Virus record (IMG/VR): IMGVR_UViG_3300037324_000037
Location: 1 to 36,318 of that record
Origin: a virus
DNA length: 36,318 bases
Strand: one strand, 5' to 3'
The notes below the pieces were generated by a model, which ran no database searches, was not told where the DNA came from, and saw only the letters and a program-made list of their open reading frames with translations. The translations under genes were made by a program, and so were the position numbers. Each line of letters starts with the position of its first letter. The stretch's first letter is position 1. Positions 27,269-34,023 of this stretch are shown one piece after another.

Positions 27269-27513
27269 GGCCGGCCAGCATCGTTGCCAAAAGACTCCCG
27301 CATGGTCGCCAGTAGCGCCTTCGTACTAGCGTCTTTATCCTTGGCCAAATGAAGCGAATATGTCTCGCCTGCAAACCCCAGGTAAATCATGTCTCGCACC
27401 AGGTCTGCTTTGATGATGCTCAAGGTGTGAGCGCATGCGGCCAGTGCGTCGGCAAATGCCTCGGTCACACTGGTCTCGATGCGGTTATCGAGTTTTCCGG
27501 TGTGCAGGTTCAT
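27265..27513 (-). CDS. Small early protein (82 aa), unknown
   Basis: An 82-aa acidic/helical protein: MNLHTGKLDNRIETSVTEAFADALAACAHTLSIIKADLVRDMIYLGF, then a basic, lysine-rich stretch (LAKDKDASTKALLATMRESFG). The ATG follows the stop of the Cro-like gene without any gap, so it is the second gene of the leftward early operon. No family is recognised. The overall helical pattern suggests a small protein-interaction factor. Confidence 0.68.
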   Translation of the reverse strand: MNLHTGKLDNRIETSVTEAFADALAACAHTLSIIKADLVRDMIYLGFAGETYSLHLAKDKDASTKALLATMRESFGNDAGRP

Positions 27514-27762
27514 TTAAGCGGCGTCCTTTTCGGTGGATTGCTCGGCCAGCTCTGGCCAGATGCGGCGCCAGTCCTGCGGGAACAGGTGCTGGCGAGTCAC
27601 CGCACCAGCAGTAAAGCCTTCGATAAGCGCGGCGTGGCGCATAGGCAGGGGCTTGCGCCTGCTGAGCCAGGCATTGACCACCGGAGGTTGCACGCCCAGG
27701 TGGCGGGCAAGCTGCACTTGGCGCCCGTGCGCTTGTCCCAGCCAGTCTTTAAGTTCGTTCAT
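27514..27762 (-). CDS. Cro/YdaS-like HTH regulator (82 aa)
   Basis: MNELKDWLGQAHGRQVQLARHLGVQPPVVNAWLSRRKPLPMRHAALIEGFTAGAVTRQHLFPQDWRRIWPEL follows the YdaS/Cro pattern: an HTH at about residues 15-36 (QLARHLGVQPPVVNAWLSRR), the 'LP..HAALIE..T.GAV.R..L.P' segment, and the C-terminal DWRRIWPEL. It is the first gene of the leftward operon. The -10 box at 27771-27776 places the start site within a few bases of the ATG, so the mRNA is nearly leaderless, as for lambda cI made from PRM. It likely competes with the repressor for the shared operators and commits the phage to lytic growth. Confidence 0.86.
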   Translation of the reverse strand: MNELKDWLGQAHGRQVQLARHLGVQPPVVNAWLSRRKPLPMRHAALIEGFTAGAVTRQHLFPQDWRRIWPELAEQSTEKDAA

Positions 27763-27770
27763 GACCGAGA

Positions 27771-27813
27771 TTATTAGCCACGGCGTAAAGTCATGTCAAT
27801 AGCTACCGCGTCA
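27771..27813 (-). promoter_or_regulatory. Leftward early promoter with two operators (PR/OR-like)
   Basis: Read on the minus strand: TTGACA (27799-27794), a 17-bp spacer, TAATAA (27776-27771). Operator a, TTACGCCGTGGCTAA (27788-27774), fills the spacer; operator b, TGACGCGGTAGCTAT (27813-27799), overlaps the upstream edge of the -35. Their starts are 25 bp apart. The whole 45-bp block is about 82% identical (37/45) to that at 28625-28669 in the opposite orientation. Confidence 0.85.
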
Positions 27814-28236
27814 TTTTGTTTTTTGCGCGGCCGACGTGTAATTTCCGGCGCGCAAACAATCTCAGAAACACGAAGACAGCGCCTAGCCATGCTTATCCAA
27901 AAGCACGGCAGCTTGGCTGTCTTGAACGAAACCATCGGCTTAGCGCGCACCGATGCCACGCTATCGCAGATAAAAAACCAGTCGGCCCACCACAACACCG
28001 GAAAACCCCGATCAATGGGTGACGACCTTGCTAGAAAAATCGAGCAAACGCTGAACCTGGATGTTGGCTGGATGGACACCCCAGCCAGCTATGCAGAGCT
28101 GCATGGGCAAGCCGACACGATCGGACTAGCCGTCAAAGTGCTGGAGGCAATGGAGCCAGAAGAACGTTATCAAGCACTTCTACTTCTTGGTGCGCTTGCG
28201 AAACCAGCAGGGGCCAACGGCACGACAGGAAACTGA
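27793..28236 (+). CDS. CI-like repressor without a cleavage domain (147 aa)
   Basis: The DNA-binding domain is SETRRQRLAMLIQKHGSLAVLNETIGL...ATLSQIKNQ...MGDDLARKIEQTLNLDVGWMD (residues about 24-97), the typical phage-repressor HTH ending in 'LARKIEQ.L.L..GWMD'. The remaining ~50 residues (LAVKVLEAMEPEERYQALLLLGAL) form a short helix region; no S24/LexA-type peptidase with its Ser-Lys pair is present, so RecA-driven self-cleavage is not expected. The start is uncertain: ATG 27793 overlaps the -35 of the opposing promoter, TTG 27823 is possible, and ATG 27889 would cut the first helix. It is flanked on both sides by matching operators, which it probably binds. Confidence 0.82.
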   Translation: MSIATASFCFLRGRRVISGAQTISETRRQRLAMLIQKHGSLAVLNETIGLARTDATLSQIKNQSAHHNTGKPRSMGDDLARKIEQTLNLDVGWMDTPASYAELHGQADTIGLAVKVLEAMEPEERYQALLLLGALAKPAGANGTTGN

Positions 28237-28314
28237 GAGCCAAGCCAAATTGGTGCTCAGGCTGGTGTCGAAACCGAAGCCTCTATGATAAGCTGACCCG
28301 CAACAGGAGCGCAC

Positions 28315-28563
28315 ATGCACAAAATTCCCTGGCTTCTTCCTTTGTTCGGCGCAATTTTTGGCTTTGTTGCCATCTTCGCCTCGATCTTTTTTACAAGAAC
28401 TGCACAGCAAGAAATGGTGGGCTACTCAATGGCGTGCGCCTTTGCCATAGTCCCATACGTGCTCGTGCGCAGCGTCACCGAGCTGGCCGATGATCGCGAT
28501 GAACTTAGGGAGCTGCGCGGCATAAGAGAGCTGCTGGCCAAAGCGCAGAATCCCAAACCCTGA
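28315..28563 (+). CDS. Small two-TM membrane protein next to the repressor (82 aa)
   Basis: MHKIPWLLPLFGAIFGFVAIFASIFF gives TM1, and MACAFAIVPYVLVRSVTEL TM2, followed by a charged helix (DDRDELRELRGIRELLAKAQ). CAGGAG about ten bases upstream is a fair ribosome-binding site. It lies 78 bases after the repressor gene and just before a terminator, so it may be expressed from the prophage with the repressor. Candidates are superinfection exclusion or lysogenic conversion, but nothing in the sequence proves it. Confidence 0.75.
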   Translation: MHKIPWLLPLFGAIFGFVAIFASIFFTRTAQQEMVGYSMACAFAIVPYVLVRSVTELADDRDELRELRGIRELLAKAQNPKP

Positions 28564-28580
28564 GATAAATCCCGCTCATA

Positions 28581-28606
28581 AAAACCGCCCCTCGGCGGTT
28601 TTTTTT
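28581..28606 (+). terminator. Intrinsic terminator of the repressor transcription unit
   Basis: AAAACCGCC (28581-28589), loop CCTC, GGCGGTTTT (28594-28602): a perfect 9-bp stem leading into a run of eight T (28599-28606). It follows the two-TM gene by 18 bases and isolates the repressor operon from the strong rightward promoter at 28639. Confidence 0.92.
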
Positions 28607-28624
28607 CGCCCGCGCATAAATAAA

Positions 28625-28667
28625 TTACGCCGTGGCTATTGACAAAGCGTTACGCCGTGGCTAATAC
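28625..28667 (+). promoter_or_regulatory. Rightward early promoter with two operators (PL/OL-like)
   Basis: TTGACA (28639-28644), 17-bp spacer, TAATAC (28662-28667). Operator copies TTACGCCGTGGCTAT (28625-28639) and TTACGCCGTGGCTAA (28650-28664) are 25 bp apart; the second fills the spacer. The design mirrors 27771-27813 on the other side of the repressor. It drives the accessory operon beginning at 28699. Confidence 0.88.
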
Positions 28668-28698
28668 TCGCCTCACGTTAAACCCAACGGAGAGGCAG

Positions 28699-28878
28699 AT
28701 GCAACCAACCCCCGCCACCATCAAGCTCAGCGAGCTACGCCTGGTGCTCTCGGTCGCCAAGCTGATCGAGAGGGTTAAGTGCAGGCATGGCCTGCGCGAA
28801 GTGCGCGCCACCTGGGGTATCGGCCCCAAGGCCTTGCTGGCTGAGCCCCGATACGTGCTTTGCGGTGGTGCCGCATGA
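28699..28878 (+). CDS. First gene of the rightward operon (59 aa), unknown
   Basis: ATG 28699 is preceded by GGAGAGG and lies about 25 bases after the predicted start site; a longer frame from 28639 would begin inside the promoter. The product, MQPTPATIKLSELRLVLSVAKLIERVKCRHGLREVRATWG, is small, basic and helical, and could bind nucleic acid. No family is recognised. It holds the place of lambda N-like early genes, but no arginine-rich N-peptide pattern is evident. It overlaps the next gene by ATGA. Confidence 0.7.
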   Translation: MQPTPATIKLSELRLVLSVAKLIERVKCRHGLREVRATWGIGPKALLAEPRYVLCGGAA

Positions 28879-29078
28879 ACACAAACACGCACACCCGTGC
28901 CCGAGGCAGCGCCTGGACAGGCCGCGCCCCTCGCACCATGAACGAGGCGTTTGGGCCTCACGTTAGCCTTCCCGGCGAGCGCGAAGCGGCATACCACCGC
29001 AACGACCGCATCGTGATGTGGGCATGCGCCATCGCCTTCGCCGCCCTGCTCGCAATGGCCGCACTGCGCTGGATCTGA
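28875..29078 (+). CDS. Small single-TM protein (67 aa)
   Basis: ATG 28875 overlaps the preceding stop by ATGA. MNTNTHTRARGSAWTGRAPRTMNEAFGPH is a basic soluble part, and IVMWACAIAFAALLAMAALRWI a C-terminal TM segment, i.e. a tail-anchored layout. No family is recognised. The gene is coupled within the rightward operon. Confidence 0.68.
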   Translation: MNTNTHTRARGSAWTGRAPRTMNEAFGPHVSLPGEREAAYHRNDRIVMWACAIAFAALLAMAALRWI

Positions 29079-29083
29079 CAGCC

Positions 29084-29344
29084 ATGGTCAACACGCGCAC
29101 CATGCCCAGCCGTCGACTGCTCGACCCGGGCTTTCGCTACACACCGGCCGTGGCCACAGACATCGGCGCGCGCTTCGCGGCGATGCGCGCAGCCGATGCC
29201 CGTGCCCAGCGCAAGGAGCGCGACGCCCGCCAGGCCGTGCTCGACCTGGAGCCCTGCGCCGCCATCCAACTGCTGCCCACCGCCGTCGTGCTGCAGCTGC
29301 GCCCACCCGCCAAACGCAAATCGCCCGCGCGCCGCACCGCGTGA
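29084..29344 (+). CDS. Small conserved phage protein (86 aa)
   Basis: MVNTRTMPSRRLLDPGFRYTPAVATDIGARFAAMRAADARAQRKERDARQ: the phrase 'LLDP.F.YTPA..TDI...F...R' is one I recall from many short phage early proteins of unknown function. A charged helix follows. ATG 29084 lies five bases after the previous stop; the internal MPSRRLLD at 29102 is an alternative start and matches the usual beginning of relatives better. The C-terminal 30 residues (VVLQLRPPAKRKSPARRTA) are basic. Confidence 0.7.
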   Translation: MVNTRTMPSRRLLDPGFRYTPAVATDIGARFAAMRAADARAQRKERDARQAVLDLEPCAAIQLLPTAVVLQLRPPAKRKSPARRTA

Positions 29345-32076: not shown

Positions 32077-32574
32077 ATGAAAAAATACACACAGGCGGAA
32101 TTCGACGCCTTCCTAATCGTTAATGGTTTTCGACAGTGCCCGTCAGGGGACTACAGTGGAATCCGTGTCTTTGATGAACAATGCCGCTTCGGTGAGTGGT
32201 GCATCTTCGGTGATGGGTGCAGCTTCGGTGCGTGGTGCATCTTCGGTGAGGGGTGCAGCTTTGGTGCGTGGTGCAACTTCGGTGAGGGGTGCAGCTTCGG
32301 TGCGTGGTGCAGCTTCGAGGGCAGCAAAGTAAAGAAGGGGTATCCGTTTATAGCCATTGCAGGGGCAGGCACTGAAGCACGCACCACGTATTTCTTCAAC
32401 CACGTAGACGCTATCCGGGTACGCAGTGGCTGCTTCTTTGGCACGCTAGCAGGATTTCGCTCAAAGGTGCTCATTGACACCCAAGAGGATAAGACGCATA
32501 TTAAAGCGCTCCAGTACCTTGGCATGGCCAACATTGCAGCTGCCACCTTTGACCCAACACAGATCAAAAAATGA
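32077..32574 (+). CDS. Cys-periodic hexapeptide-repeat protein (165 aa)
   Basis: Residues 36-80 are a hexapeptide array in which Cys recurs every six residues (36, 42, 48, 54, 60, 66, 72, 78), with FG following two later (CRFGEW, CIFGDG, CSFGAW and so on). Such a period suggests a left-handed beta-helix, with stacked Cys and Phe ladders. A ~35-residue N-terminal part and an ~85-residue C-terminal globular domain (TTYFFNHVDAIRVRSGCFFG, DTQEDKTHIKALQYLGMANI) frame it. I recall similar proteins in phages and none with a known function; metal binding or DNA mimicry are guesses. It is AT-richer than upstream genes. Confidence 0.8.
   Translation: MKKYTQAEFDAFLIVNGFRQCPSGDYSGIRVFDEQCRFGEWCIFGDGCSFGAWCIFGEGCSFGAWCNFGEGCSFGAWCSFEGSKVKKGYPFIAIAGAGTEARTTYFFNHVDAIRVRSGCFFGTLAGFRSKVLIDTQEDKTHIKALQYLGMANIAAATFDPTQIKK
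32182..32316 (+). repeat. 36-nt tandem repeats encoding the hexapeptide array
   Basis: The hexapeptide array is encoded by near-identical 36-nt units (two hexapeptides each), with short 18-nt sub-repeats alternating between GCGTGG-type and GAGGGG-type ends. Copy number could change by slippage in multiples of 18 or 36 without altering the frame. Confidence 0.88.
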
Positions 32575-32957: not shown

Positions 32958-33331
32958 GCGATAAACAATTGATGCAAGACGCTTATGACGCGCTTTGCGT
33001 AGTTTTTCCAGGACAGCTAGCAATGGCTGAATGGGAGCAAAACGAAACACTTAGAGCAGCTCTACGCGAGCGGCTGGCGCAGCCTATTGCCAGCGGTCAG
33101 GAGCCGGTAGCTTGGTGGGATGAAGATGGCGTTCGTCTGCGCTACAGCGACACTGTTGACGTACCGCGTGGCACTCCGCTCTATTTTCACCCAGCACCAG
33201 CACAGCATCCGCTACGTCGTGATGAAGTTGCAGACTTGCATGAGGAAACCGAGCCACTGTGCTCGTTGTATACATTTCGGGATATTGTCGCAGACATAGA
33301 AGCCAAACACGGCATCAAGGAAAAGCCATGA
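32954..33331 (+). CDS. Accessory protein B of a paralogous pair (125 aa)
   Basis: Starts MSDKQLMQDAYDALCVVFPGQLAMAEW, then IASGQEPVAWWDEDGVRLRYSDT, TPLYFHPAPAQHPLRRDE, and ends EAKHGIKEKP. The central and C-terminal phrases match the preceding gene at protein and DNA level, so the two arose by duplication; the N-terminal 30 residues differ. Overlaps both neighbours by ATGA. No recognised function. Confidence 0.72.
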   Translation: MSDKQLMQDAYDALCVVFPGQLAMAEWEQNETLRAALRERLAQPIASGQEPVAWWDEDGVRLRYSDTVDVPRGTPLYFHPAPAQHPLRRDEVADLHEETEPLCSLYTFRDIVADIEAKHGIKEKP

Positions 33332-34023
33332 TATTGAACACGACTTTGGAAAAAATCAGGGAGCACTCGCCATGCCGCGACGGCTGGGCGAAATTGCTCA
33401 AGCATCTGGGCAAGACCGCAGCCGACAACGAGCCGCTGGCCATCGTCACGATCATCGACGCAAACAAGCTCGATGACGCGCTGTGGTGCTTGCGCGCTGT
33501 CAGCGGCCATGACCATGAGATTCGGCTTTTTGGCGTTTGGTGCGCCCGCCAGGTGCAGCACCTGATGAAGGACCCGCGATCAATTGCCTCGCTCGATGTT
33601 GCAGAACGCTTTGCGAATGGCGAAGCGAGCGAGAAAGAGTTGTCCGACGCAGGGGCCGCCGCATGGGCAGCAAGGGCCGCCGCAGGGGCCGCCGCAGGGG
33701 CCGCCGCAGGGGCCGCCGCATGGGACGACGCAAGGGCCGCCGCGTTGGCCGCATGGGCCGCCGCAAGTGCCGCAGGGGACGCCGCAAGGGACGCCGCAGG
33801 GGCAGCAAGGGCCGCCGCATGGGCAGCAGGGGCCGCCGCAGGGGCCGCCGCAGGGGCCGCCGCAGGGGCCGCCGCAGGGGCCGCCGCGTTGGCCGCATGG
33901 GCCGCCGCAAGGGACGCCGCAAGGGCCGCCGCAAGTGCCGCACGGGACGCCGCAAGTGCCGCCCAGGAAAAAGAGCTTCGCGCCGTATGCGCCCGCATTA
34001 CCGAGCAGGAGGCAGGAAATTAA
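33328..34023 (+). CDS. Ala-rich repeat protein with conserved N-domain (231 aa)
   Basis: ATG 33328 overlaps the previous stop by ATGA; a longer frame exists upstream. Residues 1-100 are a conserved domain (SPCRDGWAKLLKHLGKT, LAIVTIIDANKLDDALWCLRAV, EIRLFGVWCARQVQHLMKD, SLDVAERFANGEAS) seen in phage and bacterial proteins sometimes labelled 'putative immunity'. Residues about 109-214 are an Ala-rich array (AAAGAAAGAAAGAAAW...), encoded by a 12-nt GGGGCCGCCGCA repeat, likely one long helix. A charged tail (QEKELRAVCARITEQEAG) ends it. Expansion of the repeat is stronger than in relatives I recall. Function unknown. Confidence 0.75.
   Translation: MILNTTLEKIREHSPCRDGWAKLLKHLGKTAADNEPLAIVTIIDANKLDDALWCLRAVSGHDHEIRLFGVWCARQVQHLMKDPRSIASLDVAERFANGEASEKELSDAGAAAWAARAAAGAAAGAAAGAAAWDDARAAALAAWAAASAAGDAARDAAGAARAAAWAAGAAAGAAAGAAAGAAAGAAALAAWAAARDAARAAASAARDAASAAQEKELRAVCARITEQEAGN
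33650..33966 (+). repeat. 12-nt GC-rich tandem repeat array
   Basis: About 26 units of GGGGCCGCCGCA and variants (GGGACGCCGCAA, TTGGCCGCATGG, AAGTGCCGCA...). Because the unit is a multiple of three and free of stops, all six frames stay open here, producing spurious long frames on both strands. G-runs every 12 bases could form quadruplexes. Confidence 0.92.

Follow-up and report, generated by a model that had tools for sequence, protein, structure and literature searches.

Genes and Features of the Region

The window analyzed here spans an entire viral contig (36,318 bp), and no similarity was found between its DNA and known phages and plasmids. In and next to the interval 27771-28667, a short repressor gene and a cro-like gene are divergently transcribed around a shared operator region (OR), and a second operator set (OL) is present at the early promoter beyond the repressor (Table 1). 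The cro-like gene is the first of the PR operon and is followed by replication initiation and DnaB genes. Its product matches solved phage Cro proteins in the PDB (8co2/8c7k, 4e-08); the Cro types taken together were too diverse for their alignment to serve as a search query. The small hydrophobic ORF occupies the slot held in lambda by rexAB, which in relatives is filled by unrelated genes. A hairpin similar to the one before PL was seen in a related locus, L202 (loci are numbered with the prefix L).

Among the rightward ORFs scanned, none was recognized as encoding an antirepressor. Further to the right, the ORF at 32077-32571 encodes repeated W-C-x-F-G-x-G-C-S-F-G-A type hexapeptide-like repeats with a weak match to PF00132, and the ORF at 33322-34020 encodes a strongly alanine-rich repeat protein (phrog_18326, 7.7e-51; function not assigned). 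A tyrosine integrase was sought in the contig and no match was obtained, so temperance was inferred from the repressor.

Table 1. Coordinates of features in and around the predicted immunity region (bits, relatives-only weight matrix)
Feature	Position	Strand	Evidence and remarks
cro-like gene (YdaS / P22-Cro family)	27514..27762	-	PF15943, E 6.8e-13; P22_Cro, 8.1e-06; phrog_35, 3.5e-15
PR	27771..27799	-	-35 TTGACA at 27799-27794, -10 TAATAA at 27776-27771; sequence and promoter scan
Predicted operator OR1, TTACGCCGTGGCTAA	27774..27788	-	Fills PR spacer; 25.0 bits, joint first in window
Predicted operator OR2, TGACGCGGTAGCTAT	27799..27813	-	Abuts PR -35, adjoins putative PRM; 14.3 bits, fourth in window
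Putative PRM -10, TGTAAT	27837..27842	+	7 nt before expected repressor start; deduced from relatives
Repressor (CI analogue)	27850..28236	+	phrog_12107, 1.6e-16; HTH and short C-terminal helical hairpin, no peptidase
Small hydrophobic ORF	28315..28563	+	phrog_12304, 1.6e-07; between repressor and PL
Terminator-like hairpin and T run	28580..28606	+	Before PL; sequence; not listed by the scan tool
Predicted operator OL2, TTACGCCGTGGCTAT	28625..28639	+	Abuts PL -35; 24.9 bits
PL	28639..28667	+	-35 TTGACA at 28639-28644, -10 TAATAC at 28662-28667; sequence and promoter scan; conserved in relatives
Predicted operator OL1, TTACGCCGTGGCTAA	28650..28664	+	Fills PL spacer; 25.0 bits
First ORF of PL operon	28699..28878	+	ORF list; no family match

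Mirrored Promoters and Predicted Operators

A consensus promoter scan of 27,400-29,200 returned exactly two sigma-70-like promoters, PR and PL, where 0.5 were expected. PR is conserved in L202, L203, L204, L061, L215, L216 and L219. The original prediction placed these promoters in two 45-bp blocks of about 82% identity (27769-27813 on the minus strand and 28625-28669 on the plus strand), each with TTGACA, a 17-bp spacer and TAATAA or TAATAC. All of these elements were seen at their positions, and the blocks are identical at exactly 37/45 positions. No 45-bp inverted pair in the window matches better than 38/45, and that pair is found at these same blocks; the best pairs of three shuffled windows reached 31-34.

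The window operator, as predicted from the sequence, is TTACGC-N3-GGCTAA (15 bp). Candidate sites were scored with a weight matrix built from 27 sites of related loci, with the window excluded, and all window positions were scanned on both strands. The four sites claimed earlier ranked first to fourth, at 25.0, 25.0, 24.9 and 14.3 bits, and the next position scored 10.0. Each block had been described as holding two operator copies: the 25-bp spacing held in both, with the pair overlapping promoter spacer and -35, and three of the four copies were exact or one letter off, but the fourth, OR2, differs from the proposed 15-mer at 4 positions. Although diverged, OR2 was retained as a real member of the site set because it is the fourth-best position for a matrix made only from relatives. 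The half-site TGACGC of OR2 is seen again in L202 and L203, the closest relatives, a recurrence that points to a site maintained at low strength. OR1 has an exact copy in L140/L203.

No OR3 overlapping PRM was detectable in the window, the best score in the OR3 interval being -0.6 bits with the same matrix; OR3-like sites lie 23-24 bp beyond OR2 in L204/L217 and L219. Besides its OR3-like site, L204/L217 (IMGVR_UViG_3300042465_005916) has a pair of full-strength operators in each of OR and OL, and is the cleanest member of the TTACGC operator class for bench work.

A direct-repeat operator of the P2 type was set aside: the three central bases vary between two conserved 6-bp halves, the pattern that a dimer on a pseudo-palindrome would give. 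The half-sites xGCG and CGCTA of the KS9-type operator were not found at the window sites, which read TTACGC-N3-GGCTAA.

The Repressor and Its Start Codon

The description of the repressor as an HTH protein without a cleavage domain was supported. The phrog_12107 HMM matched residues 21-102 of the long frame that begins at 27793 (1.6e-16). An AlphaFold2 model (pLDDT 84.7) consisted of an HTH domain of four main helices followed by a two-helix hairpin. The best structural match of the HTH domain was Rep of phage SPC32H (Z 11.2, rmsd 1.7 over 73 residues), in a comparison that covers mainly model residues 1-86 and barely includes the fold of the C-terminal hairpin. No RecA-stimulated self-cleaving C-terminal domain was found; 127 residues follow the start codon, and in the model the protein has no room for a peptidase domain. 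Identity to the repressors of relatives was 72% for L202, 63% for L140/L203, 57% for L204 and about 50% for the Enterobacterales genomes L197-L201.

The repressor had been proposed to start at ATG 27793. This start was rejected, since it lies within PR, inside the -35, and the relatives place the start at the equivalent of 27850; differences from relatives upstream of 27853 also lacked wobble bias. By codon position, the differences from relatives numbered 15-20/8-10/38-44 downstream of 27853, and [6,7,8] and [3,6,6] upstream. In all relatives examined, an ATG or GTG immediately precedes the Q/K codon that matches window 27853, and five of them (L202, L203, L061, L216 and L219) have TGTAAT or TTTAAT exactly 7 nt upstream of the start, the arrangement that a PRM giving a leaderless mRNA would show. 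In the window both TGTAAT and the 7-nt spacing are present, but 27850-27852 reads GCG.

The GCG at 27850 leaves three possibilities: no repressor is produced, translation begins elsewhere, or the base is wrong. That the switch is anatomically intact but yields no repressor in this contig is a substantial possibility, close to an even chance but below it; the explanation would be natural virulence in a variant phage, a prophage in decay or a sequence error. Every relative examined has ATG or GTG at this codon; from the putative PRM start up to helix 1 there is no other ATG, GTG or TTG, and the next in-frame ATG, at 27893, would cut helix 1; OR3 is likewise undetectable. Against this, the frame has been under selection, because it is open and its differences from relatives are wobble-biased; ATG 27793 or TTG 27823 could serve if a transcript started further upstream; and GCG may be a single-base error in a metagenome contig. 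The possibility of an unmade repressor qualifies rather than excludes the reading of the region as an immunity region.

Conservation of the Arrangement in Related Loci

Single-protein scans with the repressor in viral and genome contig collections gave no match, and alignments were required. With a repressor alignment, 57 viral loci were found, which together with the window made 58. The triple of OL1, OL2 and OR beat all 20 shuffles in 52/58 of these loci with related repressors. When the pair spacing was left free between 16 and 40 bp, 25 bp came out best in 44 loci, and either 24 or 26 bp in 6 others. Relatives from Burkholderia, Bordetella, Pseudomonas and Enterobacterales have the same arrangement with other operator letters, and the named phages IFTN9, KS9, BgManors32, VW-6S and PseuP_224 carry, again with other letters, an O2-TTGACA-O1-(-10) block beyond the repressor, in which the -35 is TTGACA or a close variant.

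Searches were also made with DNA only. The PL block TTACGCNNNGGCTATTGACANNNNNTTACGCNNNGGNTAA was searched against 2.9 million viral contigs and was found in 7; all of the stretches that reach genes (6/6) carry the repressor-Cro pair beside the block, and the same 6/6 also have sites at OR. The bare 14-mer matched 117 stretches in viral contigs, about the number expected by chance for 14 letters, and was therefore not used as stand-alone evidence; two of these stretches, L051 (which lies on the L140 contig) and L061, turned out to be genuine relatives.

The lambda-like OL/PL-OR/PR reading is supported because the four predicted sites rank first to fourth and the block recurs in 52/58 loci. The 82% identity of the two blocks to each other could also come from chance or from a recent duplication of a promoter segment with no regulatory meaning. 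We give this next to no credence: the paired, mirrored arrangement recurs with other letters in dozens of loci, and relatives keep the operator letters while the flanks diverge. Comparative evidence upheld the compact OL/PL-OR/PR analogue, short of full equivalence for the second operator on the Cro side.

Sequences resembling boxA (CGCTCTTTAACAA / CGCTCTTTAAAAA) were noted shortly downstream of PL in IFTN9 and VW-6S (L130, L134) and hint at antitermination in those phages; by eye, none was seen in the PL leader of the window.

Co-variation of Operator and Repressor

Operator, repressor and Cro distances were compared across 50 distinct loci. Operator distance was correlated with repressor distance when Cro distance was held fixed (partial r 0.63, 0/2000 permutations), and with repressor distance held fixed it was not correlated with Cro distance (partial r 0.07, p 0.11). 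Across these loci, the predicted operator tracks the repressor rather than Cro. Related loci share ancestry, and counts of co-variation overstate the number of independent events. The 15-bp sites might instead be mainly sites for the YdaS-like Cro, with the repressor acting elsewhere, and the Cro recognition region in the TTACGC class does have a shared PPxV too; but Cro distance explains nothing once repressor distance is fixed, and three loci (L162, L154 and L164) combine the operator type that goes with their repressor with a Cro of another type. We consider such an assignment of the sites to Cro very unlikely.

The repressor segment after the recognition helix was compared with the half-sites. 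HHxTG went with TTACGC/GG half-sites in 4/4 loci, DSKTG or DSKSG with xGCG (one AGCA)/CGCT in 49/49, and KSSTG with AGCA/TGCT in 7/7; four further loci of the TTACGC class had a PHSKTG or PHSVSG segment. This association was taken as a lead and not as proof, because the loci are related by descent. Operator specificity may be set partly by this segment (HHxTG/PHSxxG, DSKTG/DSKSG and KSSTG classes), and the window phage may belong to a separate immunity group, not yet catalogued, whose OR has two operators. This proposal is tentative and less likely than not; if it is true, immunity groups would be readable from sequence.

The operator had been called one of an unrecognized family. It belongs to a single specificity class, TTACGC-N3-GGCTAA, which was seen in 8 contigs, the window among them, and no description of this class was found in the open literature searched.

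Comparison with Known Systems

In lambda, one operator lies in the promoter spacer and one abuts the -35, at a spacing of about 24-25 bp; PRM adjoins OR2, cI is leaderless, and one or more extra genes lie between cI and PL. The window resembles lambda in gene order, mirrored OL and OR, operator placement and spacing, a putative PRM beside OR2, a predicted leaderless cI and an extra gene before PL. Unlike lambda, its repressor lacks a RecA-cleavable peptidase domain, OR3 and OL3 are not detectable, and the operator sequence is unrelated. Lambda N and CII were not among the genes recognized in the window.

The closest studied precedent is CP-933P of E. coli O157:H7 (PaaR2/YdaS). In CP-933P, the sites footprinted in OR by PaaR2, a protein without the peptidase motif, and by YdaS overlap, repeats are also present at PL933P, and cI is leaderless (PMC8630535). 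Like CP-933P, the window has a short CI analogue without a peptidase motif (the 27850..28236 product), a Cro of the YdaS family (the 27514..27762 product), divergent PR and putative PRM with predicted overlapping operators, operators also at PL beyond the repressor, and a predicted leaderless cI. Unlike those of the window, the CP-933P operators are 18-bp palindromes, GTTTAGTAA, four of them in OR. CP-933P also has paaA2-parE2 in the slot after cI, unlike the window, and a YdaT (CII) gene after ydaS, where none was recognized in the window.

The Pfam name of the Cro-like family, YdaS_toxin, raises the question of whether the product is a toxin and the region a toxin-antitoxin module, and YdaS of Rac was reported as a toxin (PMC5700373). 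The CP-933P work argues that YdaS and YdaT are Cro and CII analogues and not a toxin-antitoxin pair (PMC8630535). Position, operators and family place the 27514..27762 product as Cro, and a toxin-antitoxin module is highly improbable.

Two named phages share with the window the mirrored block, PL beyond the repressor and a YdaS-type Cro. In Burkholderia phage KS9 (gp41/gp42), the repressor gp41 has 133 aa. Bordetella phage IFTN9 has the same 25-bp pair spacing, but its repressor, at 235 aa, is unlike that of the window. The operator of both is TTCGCG-TTT-CGCTAA or a close variant, as against TTACGC-N3-GGCTAA, and both have a clear OR3, unlike the window. No papers on KS9 or IFTN9 operators were found in the open literature searched. 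Rep of Salmonella phage SPC32H (5d50), the best match of the HTH domain, was solved as a Rep-Ant complex; its C-terminal part is longer than that of the window repressor, and no antirepressor gene was recognized among the rightward ORFs scanned in the window.

Proposed Mechanism and Significance

The region at 27771-28667 is, as judged from sequence, a lambda-type immunity region of the short-CI/YdaS-Cro sort, and the original prediction was correct in substance. The four predicted sites and the two promoters, with their conservation, come from sequence and comparison, as do the gene order and the way operator and repressor co-vary. A temperate lambdoid phage very probably has its immunity region here.

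The lambda repressor blocks PL and PR and stimulates PRM from OR2, and Cro competes with it. By analogy, the repressor (27850-28236) would bind as a dimer to the 15-bp TTACGC-N3-GGCTAA sites, of which each early promoter, PR (cro, replication) and PL (rightward early genes), has two; both promoters are directed away from the repressor gene. Occupied OL1/OL2 and OR1/OR2 would cover the spacer and the -35, turning off both promoters and giving lysogeny and immunity. Repressor bound at OR2, which adjoins PRM, would probably also stimulate its own synthesis from a leaderless mRNA, and the Cro-like protein would compete for the sites and favor lytic growth.

The kind of switch, governing the choice between dormancy and lytic attack, is ordinary and widespread, and its operator letters are its own. 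The points of interest are the 25-bp paired architecture and its conservation, the co-variation of operator and repressor and the odd start codon. The switch offers a clean, testable immunity group, defined by its 15-bp sites, its short repressor and YdaS-type Cro, and an operator common to eight contigs; it also favors taking the "YdaS toxin" annotation at loci of this sort to mean Cro. The paired 25-bp OL/OR architecture is kept across phages of several proteobacterial genera and the operator letters change with the repressor, which would make it possible to predict, from DNA alone, the immunity group to which an uncultured phage belongs.
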